DNA of 64,000 bases, from positions 2,229,501 to 2,293,500 of the forward strand of contig KE356560.1 of the NCBI GenBank assembly GCA_000415965.1, read 5' to 3'. This document shows, in pieces, positions 35,653 through 38,643 of the stretch; within the stretch, counting starts at the first letter, position 1; each line of letters opens with the position of its first letter. The stretch is from Haloquadratum walsbyi J07HQW1. Lineage in GTDB: Archaea > Halobacteriota > Halobacteria > Halobacteriales > Haloferacaceae. The notes under the pieces are model-generated. The model saw nothing but the letters and a program-made list of their open reading frames with translations, made no database searches and had not been told where the DNA came from. The position numbers and the translations under genes were made by a program.

Positions 35653-36537
35653 TTAGGTAAGGACGCATTTCAATTCTGCGCGTAGATATGACCCGATACT
35701 TGCGATTAATCCAGGAGGGTCTGTATCCTCTGTGCAAATAACACTCTGTTCAAGCAATCCAAGTCGATCCACAGTGACGATATCATTAGCATGACCAGCG
35801 CGATTAATTGTTGCTCTGACCTCTCCACGTGTTGCACTATTTACATTCACCCGACCTGCACCTGGTTCTCGTGTCCACTCATACAGTTGGTCACGAGTTG
35901 AGTCAGCTAATCGTGGCGTCTCGCCAGCGACAAATCGAAGTGGCGTGTGTTGGACAACACCAAATCGATCACGAATCTGTGTTGGTGAGCCCTGTCCAAG
36001 TCCAAGTTCAGAGGCTGGAATCGTGACATATTCGTCGCCAACGTCAAGTGTCCACCCGCTTTCGTTCCATGAATCAAGTGTCCCGGTATATATGTCTCCA
36101 TCTGTTCGTTTCGGGGATGCGTAAATCTCTCCCCATGTCTCTGCAAGGAGGTTTGACGCAGCCGTCGCATCTCCCCCAGTAAGTGTGACGAGAATAAATT
36201 CGTCGTCGCGAATATCAATACTCCAAGAGACGGTGAGCCCGCCGATATCGTTCTCGATCAATGATCCCATGCTGTCAAGCGCACGGTCACGGGCACTGCC
36301 GTCGACATAGCATTTCGTCCCGAGAGTAACCTTGACACGAGCAGTATCAGCATCGGTGTCGGTATCGGTGTTATCGCGTATCTGGGTATGATTACGCTTT
36401 CCCGTCTGGTTACTATCTGTTATATTACCCACAGATGAATCATCAAAATTATCGTCACTATCAGCCATGACATGCTGATCGGGGGAGGAGCAATGCTGTT
36501 TGAGAGCATCTCCTGAGATGGGGGCTTCGTCTCCCAT
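35653..36537 (-). CDS. DUF2110 family protein
   Basis: 294 residues. A 70-residue acidic, low-complexity lead precedes the conserved core starting VKVTLGTKCYVDGSARDRAL and including YTGTLDSWNESGWTLDVGDE and VNVNSATRGEVRATINRAGH. Members occur next to tfe in haloarchaea and other Euryarchaeota; the function is unproven, with transcription-related roles suggested only by context. ATG 36537 overlaps the tfe stop by one base (TGATG), so the two are translationally coupled. The lead is encoded partly by GTATCG-type repeats (about 36350-36372). Confidence 0.82.
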   Translation of the reverse strand: MGDEAPISGDALKQHCSSPDQHVMADSDDNFDDSSVGNITDSNQTGKRNHTQIRDNTDTDTDADTARVKVTLGTKCYVDGSARDRALDSMGSLIENDIGGLTVSWSIDIRDDEFILVTLTGGDATAASNLLAETWGEIYASPKRTDGDIYTGTLDSWNESGWTLDVGDEYVTIPASELGLGQGSPTQIRDRFGVVQHTPLRFVAGETPRLADSTRDQLYEWTREPGAGRVNVNSATRGEVRATINRAGHANDIVTVDRLGLLEQSVICTEDTDPPGLIASIGSYLRAELKCVLT

Positions 36538-37067
36538 CAAGCAGTTTGTGTTATCCCGACGTTGAGTTCACTCCGGAGTGAATCAATCCGGCGTTCCATC
36601 GCGTCAATCATCTCCTGATTTTCAATCGGTTCAAGTGGTGCACCGGTTTCAGGACACTGGAATCCAAGTTCCATCGCCTCAGAGAATTCAAACCGAATTC
36701 CAGCTGGTTCTGAAAGATAAAACTCGTGGCTGCGTTCGTATTCGAGTCGTTCTTCAAGCGCATCAAGCAGACGATACATTTCGGATTGAAGATTCTCAGG
36801 AATATTCTCATAATGGAACGTCCACAGATACGTGAGCCATCCAGAATCTTCATCACGGACTCGACGATATGAGGCGAGGTCATTCTCATATAAAATAAAT
36901 AACGCCCGTCGAACATCGTTGAGTTCAAGCCCGAGGTCCTCAGCAAGTTCCTCATCTGTCACTTCTCCATCTGGCGGAGCCGCCGCGACTGGCATCCCCG
37001 TTGGTCCAACCAGTTCATGAAGGTACTTTTGAATAACAGGATCGTTTAATAACTCCTCAAAAGCCAT
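36537..37067 (-). CDS. tfe: transcription initiation factor E subunit alpha, zinc ribbon degraded
   Basis: 176 residues. TFE helps TBP/TFB/RNA polymerase to open promoters. The winged helix is normal: DPVIQKYLHELVGPTGMP, TDEELAEDLGLELNDVRRAL and FILYENDLASYRRVRDEDSG. In the C-terminal ribbon the expected pattern Cys-x2-Cys ... Cys-x2-Cys is broken: the strand reads EFYLSEPAGIRFEF and GFQCPETGAPLE, so only one of four zinc cysteines remains. I checked these codons (TCA, CCA GCT, TGT, ACC). The gene lies after trm56 and overlaps DUF2110. Confidence 0.94.
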   Translation of the reverse strand: MAFEELLNDPVIQKYLHELVGPTGMPVAAAPPDGEVTDEELAEDLGLELNDVRRALFILYENDLASYRRVRDEDSGWLTYLWTFHYENIPENLQSEMYRLLDALEERLEYERSHEFYLSEPAGIRFEFSEAMELGFQCPETGAPLEPIENQEMIDAMERRIDSLRSELNVGITQTA

Positions 37068-37294: not shown

Positions 37295-37840
37295 CTACTC
37301 AGCATCAACAACGCGCTTACCACATGCTTGTGGAATAACAACATGCTCAGCATCAGCCCACTCCTGTTCAAGTTCCTTCCCCATGAATAGTCGATCAAGA
37401 AACACTGCAAGCCCCGCGACTTCCGAGTGTGGTTGATTTGTCACAGCAACGTTCCAATCTGCCCATTCATACACGTCAGATGGTACTTTTTCACCACCAA
37501 TGACAATCAATAACGGATGGTCATGAAGACACCTCTCGCGAATTTTCTTTGTCACATCCTGAACGCGCTCTCCATACATCGTCAGATGGACAACTGTCCC
37601 TGACCACTCACGGATAATCGCATTCAGCGTGTCCGTCCGCTGAACATCGAATGGACCACCAAACCGGGAGACAATATCTGTGACTGTTTCTGCAGGTTGC
37701 GTCGCATTATCTGGGAATATTATCTGATCAGCACCAAGTGCACGTGCGGTGAGTCCAACATGCGTCGTCATCCGGTCATCTCGACCGGGACGATGTCCAT
37801 ACCGGAGAACGGACACCTCATTTTCACGGGGCTGTTGCAT
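37295..37840 (-). CDS. trm56: tRNA (cytidine-56 2'-O)-methyltransferase
   Basis: About 181 residues of the archaea-specific SPOUT enzyme aTrm56, which methylates C56 in the tRNA T-loop. Motifs: LRYGHRPGRDDRMTTHVGL, LIVIGGEKVPSDVYEWADW and NVAVTNQPHSEVAGLAVFLD. I start at the methionine of MQQPRENEVSVL; a TTG four codons upstream is possible, and my base count of the start is uncertain by one. It begins the series trm56 - tfe - DUF2110 - DUF5803. Confidence 0.92.
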   Translation of the reverse strand: MQQPRENEVSVLRYGHRPGRDDRMTTHVGLTARALGADQIIFPDNATQPAETVTDIVSRFGGPFDVQRTDTLNAIIREWSGTVVHLTMYGERVQDVTKKIRERCLHDHPLLIVIGGEKVPSDVYEWADWNVAVTNQPHSEVAGLAVFLDRLFMGKELEQEWADAEHVVIPQACGKRVVDAE

Positions 37841-38643
37841 ATTCTGAGACAATCGTGACAGAGGTTAACCACTGTCGGTCGGAGTATTCGGTCATGTAAC
37901 GTTGAGTTCTCCTTAAGTTTATTTACGACGCGCTCACTCGCTGAAGACAGTTACGACCTGTGTCTGAGACTGGAAATTGGGTCTGTGAGATTATGCACTC
38001 CTGTCGTGGAATGTCCACCTTTTATGACTGTGCTCACGAGCGATACGTTTTGACTCGACTCATGCCTTCCAATATGGGTTTCGGCCCCACAAACGGGAGC
38101 GTCAACTCAGACGATTTTGCATCCTCTCTAACTCGACCTCTTGAAAACGGCAGGAGTAATTCACGTTGAATTTGACTGTGACTGTCGTTCAGCACTTCCC
38201 GTTCGGTTTTCGGTAATCCGACAATTCGTCTCTATTGTGGTGATCCGCAAAAGCGATGTGAGTCACATGGTCTGGTATGATACGGGATGATCATATTGGT
38301 TCAATTCATCTGCTCCCGAGGAGTAAAAACGTATCTCACGAGAGTAACTCCAGGTATATACTGCTTTGAACCTCAAAAAACCGATTATATAATAGAACGT
38401 ACGATTCGAATCGGGTGTAATCAATACTGGTGTCTGACTGTGAGTCGTTGAACCTCTTATTCGGTGATCGCATACATGTAACCATTATTAAATTAATTGG
38501 ATGTTTGTCAGTGGTGCTCGCGTTCACCACCGCCAAGCAGTATTTTATTATGATATTTGGATAATGAGACGAACTCTATATTATATACGTCATCTGATAA
38601 ATTGAACAGAATACTTAGTACCGTGTATAATGACATATTAGAT
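37841..38643. other. 800-bp gene-free stretch
   Basis: No intact gene. On the minus strand around 38230-38020 protein-like pieces such as TVTVKFNVNYSCRFQEVELE occur, broken by stops; they may be a dead gene but I recognise no family. The right part is A/T-rich and probably holds the promoter of the FAD oxidoreductase gene. Confidence 0.4.

Follow-up and report, generated by a model that had tools for sequence, protein, structure and literature searches.

TFE-alpha of Haloquadratum walsbyi J07HQW1 carries the single-cysteine zinc ribbon of the Haloferax-type clade, a residue set also found in other haloarchaeal lineages

The tfeA gene (36537..37067, minus strand) of the analysed 64,000-nucleotide stretch of Haloquadratum walsbyi J07HQW1 (hereafter, the window) encodes, in all likelihood, the normal and single TFE-alpha of Haloquadratum, with a ribbon that now has a low affinity for zinc and is free of dependence on a four-cysteine zinc site. 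The loss of three ribbon cysteines is the normal, lineage-wide state, not a quirk of the strain or an error. The replacement by Ser, Ala, and Thr, including that in H. walsbyi, was already published in 2018 (Nucleic Acids Res 2018, PMC5861453). What is new beyond the published work is that, judging from the sequences, the same residue set (S-A-C-T at ligand positions 1–4) also occurs in two or more unrelated lineages of haloarchaea; as the kind of change has been known since 2018, this recurrence is a modest addition.

Sequence analysis revealed that the gene product (176 aa, ATG start, full length) matches Pfam TFIIE_alpha (PF02002) over residues 33–112 with 72.1 bits (cut-off, 22.9), in agreement with the normal winged helix described in the initial annotation of this DNA. 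The extended winged helix and first long helix (about residues 4–112; 36732..37058, minus strand) are near-invariant in the alignment of haloarchaeal proteins. The two NCBIfam TFE models match nearly the entire protein, with scores under their curated cut-offs (TIGR00373, 135.5 bits versus 149.5; NF004910, 151.4 bits versus 180), as expected from the degenerate ribbon. The check for a second tfe gene proposed in that annotation was carried out, and none was found in the genome (one match in a protein search, and one Pfam match above the cut-off).

The degenerate zinc ribbon (about residues 114–148; 36624..36728, minus strand) has the sequence FYLSEPAGIRFEFSEAMELGFQCPETGAPLEP, and its ligand region reads FYL-S119-EP-A122-GIRFEFSEAMELGFQ-C138-PE-T141-GAPLEP. 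In the alignment with relatives, Ser119 (TCA, 36711..36713), Ala122 (GCT, 36702..36704), and Thr141 (ACC, 36645..36647) coincide exactly with cysteine positions 1, 2, and 4, while Cys138 (TGT, 36654..36656; all four codons on the minus strand) occupies position 3 as the one ligand kept and is the sole cysteine of the protein; the three replacements read from the letters in the initial annotation are thus confirmed. The four zinc ligands, or three plus Asp, that are a feature of archaeal TFE-alpha are lacking, and the window protein has instead the S-A-C-T set of the Haloferax-type degenerate-ribbon proteins. According to the literature, the four-ligand set is not universal in the TFE-alpha family (PMC5861453).

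Among 174 distinct sequences, the ligand sets were C-C-C-C (96), S-A-C-T (45), C-D-C-C (28), C-E-C-gap (4), and C-E-C-C (1), and Cys138 was present in all 174. S-A-C-T was identical in all of the sampled TFE proteins of Haloquadratum, Halobellus, Haloferax, Halogeometricum, and Haloplanus, isolate genomes included, while Halorubrum, Halogranum, Halegenticoccus, and other related genera have mostly four cysteines or Asp as the second ligand. Across 392 genomes sampled from the whole order, ligand position 2 is Ala in 30 genomes of seven genera, and all of these genomes (30/30) have a TCN serine codon at position 1. The intact CxxC pairs given in the initial annotation as the haloarchaeal norm are therefore a property of many haloarchaea, but not of the Haloquadratum/Haloferax clade as a whole, in which S-A-C-T is fixed and conserved. 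The anomaly implied for this strain was not borne out, and by that annotation's own measure (an alignment with other haloarchaea) relatives share S-A-C-T as their normal state.

The near-identical TFE-alpha of Haloferax volcanii (HVO_1174) has been characterised experimentally. In its ribbon, Ser, Ala, and Thr stand in for the first, second, and fourth cysteines, so that only one cysteine is left, and the H. walsbyi protein (ERG94676) was named as carrying the same substitutions (PMC5861453). Native mass spectrometry revealed a 1:1 complex with zinc that is weakly held and easily lost; the C138S mutation nearly abolished zinc binding and otherwise perturbed the protein little, and zinc stabilises the fold, which has no strict need of it (PMC5861453). 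H. volcanii TFE-alpha forms a stable heterodimer with a TFE-beta that is devoid of an iron-sulphur cluster, and deletion of tfeA failed whereas that of tfeB succeeded (PMC5861453). HVO_1174 and the window protein share Ser/Ala/Thr at cysteines 1, 2, and 4, the same Cys138, and a tfeA that forms an operon with the genes following it; there is no substantive difference between them, except that zinc binding and dimerisation with TFE-beta were measured for H. volcanii only. Ribbon residues 114–147 of the window protein and of Haloferax prahovense (L033) are letter-for-letter identical, and therefore the H. volcanii biochemistry very probably carries over to the TFE-alpha of Haloquadratum. A TFE-beta of H. 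walsbyi is listed in the same paper (PMC5861453); the Pfam model Rpc34 gave no match in this genome, nor in the H. volcanii control, the model being too distant or insensitive. The two suggestions made initially (a ribbon that can do without zinc, or a partner that provides the stability) both find some backing in the stable TFE-beta heterodimer and in a fold not strictly dependent on zinc, yet H. volcanii TFE-alpha still binds zinc weakly via Cys138 (PMC5861453).

In our reading, the ribbon of the window TFE-alpha is probably largely zinc-independent. It would represent a low-affinity form that retains the fold and the contact with RNA polymerase without dependence on a four-cysteine site, in which Cys138, perhaps together with nearby acidic side chains, may bind zinc weakly. 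The remaining stability would be provided by the packed hydrophobic residues inside the ribbon, by the helices that flank it, and by the TFE-beta partner. An improbable alternative is that Glu120, Glu127, and Glu140 together with Cys138 form a metal site of normal strength. Acidic residues are indeed conserved near the site, Asp is a common second ligand in other haloarchaea, and further residues were affected by zinc in the 2018 study (PMC5861453). However, the three glutamates are about equally conserved in four-cysteine proteins, and therefore were not gained as ligands, and the zinc affinity of the H. volcanii protein is low, zinc being lost on washing (PMC5861453).

It is even less probable that the ribbon is a non-functional, decaying remnant and that TFE acts by its winged helix alone. 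Such decay would fit the absence of three of the four ligands and the low zinc-binding affinity reported for H. volcanii (PMC5861453), but, the ligand change aside, the ribbon is near-invariant in the clade. With the four ligand sites left out, its amino-acid divergence is 0.081 within the S-A-C-T clade versus 0.089 among the related four-cysteine genera, which argues for continued constraint. Furthermore, half-way mixtures of Ser, Ala, and Thr with the original ligands are absent among the 174 distinct sequences. The ribbon modelling proposed initially was performed, and AlphaFold2 confidently predicts a folded ribbon (each block averaging a pLDDT of about 95) whose strands and helices are those also predicted for a four-cysteine relative; the best of five models of the window protein had a mean pLDDT of 87.5 and the other four 72–77, metal dependence being beyond the method. 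Taken as a whole, the model is similar to Thermococcus kodakarensis TFE of the RNA polymerase entry 6kf4_G (TM 0.80 over 161 columns), and the C-terminal ribbon fold after the long helix is present in both the prediction and this full-length match. In the known TFE architecture, the winged helix lies on the polymerase clamp and the ribbon extends to the clamp base and stalk (PMC4495717; PMC5861453); based on the match to 6kf4_G, the window TFE is predicted to keep this clamp- and stalk-contacting arrangement. It would open promoter DNA as other TFE proteins do, with the winged helix on the clamp and the ribbon towards its base and the stalk. Under the preferred reading of a constrained, low-affinity ribbon, the replacement and the zinc independence would have been selected rather than have drifted. 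A sequencing or assembly error in the window, for which only the incomplete state of the genome (completeness, 89.6%) would speak, is refuted by dozens of independent genomes, some of them from isolates, that encode the same residues with differing synonymous codons.

The published account called the change specific to Haloferax and its close relatives (PMC5861453). S-A-C-T was also found in an additional lineage (L105/L206, Halobacteriales archaeon QS_8_69_26) and in some Halovenus genomes (L070, L075, L149, L181), other Halovenus retaining four cysteines; these occurrences therefore correct the published restriction. When the tree was built from the columns outside the ribbon, four changes were required to account for S-A-C-T, at least three of them forced by well-supported branches. 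AU tests rejected the placement of all S-A-C-T proteins in one clade (p = 0.0013), as well as that of Haloferax and Halovenus in one clade (p = 0.0007). A single origin within Halovenus was not rejected (p = 0.134), and thus the origins would number three or four. Transfer of one S-A-C-T gene among the lineages is rejected by the ribbon-less tree and the AU tests. It is somewhat more likely than not that three or more haloarchaeal lineages made the change from C-C-C-C to S-A-C-T independently of one another.

The main alternative to independent origins is an exchange of the ribbon segment alone. No sign of recent ribbon-only recombination was observed, fourfold sites being equally divergent in the ribbon and elsewhere, although saturated; because of this saturation, an ancient exchange is possible. 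At residues 114, 129, 134, and 151, the S-A-C-T ribbons of Halovenus are unlike those of the Haloferax type and resemble other Halovenus, which is evidence against a recent graft. Gly123 and Pro147 are common to all three S-A-C-T lineages, all of which are without Glu137, and Pro147 occurs in 45/45 S-A-C-T versus 4/96 four-cysteine sequences. Plausible codon paths would be Cys–Asp–Ala at position 2 and Cys–Ser–Thr at position 4; beyond the C-D-C-C form, no intermediates were seen among the 174 distinct sequences. If the independent origins are true, S-A-C-T (with Gly123 and Pro147) would be a favoured route to a zinc-sparing ribbon, perhaps passing through C-Asp-C-C, rather than a chance event confined to the Haloferax clade.

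The significance of the change is that a metal centre of the basal transcription machinery has been given up while the domain is still conserved and the gene could not be deleted. Recurrence in unrelated lineages would amount to a natural replicate experiment on zinc ribbons turning zinc-independent, for which four-cysteine and S-A-C-T Halovenus provide matched pairs for biochemistry. The Sulfolobus TFE-alpha/beta (eLife 2015, PMC4495717) shares with the window protein the architecture of winged helix and ribbon and the role in initiation; the differences are that Sulfolobus TFE-alpha binds zinc through a ligand set that includes one Asp (PMC5861453) and that its TFE-beta partner has a 4Fe-4S cluster. 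The zinc-independent paralogues of bacterial ribosomal proteins (e.g., PMC5912738) are similar, being proteins of the basal machinery in which a structural zinc site has been replaced, but these are second copies that are expressed when zinc is limiting, whereas in the window the only copy is changed.

Several other ribbon variants were observed. In one genus (L225, L228, L229, L232; e.g., CENEG...FECPD-GS), a different degenerate ribbon has Glu as the second ligand and has lost the fourth cysteine by a one-residue deletion, two cysteines being left. In the 6pln_A and 6kf4_G alignments, Thermococcales TFE is without a plain second cysteine, having C-GTPG-H or C-GTEG-H instead, which suggests that archaea differ in the second ligand. 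In each of two genomes (G393, G399), the DNA pattern of the TFE ribbon matched twice, and the ribbons look intact; these may be second tfe genes or duplicated stretches.

Upstream of tfeA lies a gene for tRNA (cytidine-56-2'-O)-methyltransferase (37295..37852, minus strand), and the DUF2110 protein gene (35653..36537, minus strand) follows, its start codon sharing one base with the tfeA stop (TGATG, 36535–36539). The initial description of tfeA as full length and overlapping DUF2110 thus holds. The two genes occur together in 121 of the 123 distinct haloarchaeal loci checked, in the ranges L031–L110 and L149 upwards, usually with the TGATG overlap at the junction. From this linkage, a functional tie between DUF2110 and TFE seems likely; no paper on DUF2110 was found in the literature searched. 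An acidic, Asp/Asn/Thr-rich N-terminal extension of ~65 residues, absent from the DUF2110 proteins of two other Haloquadratum MAGs (L056, L059) and of the other genera inspected, is present in those of the window and of H. walsbyi J07HQW2 (L031).
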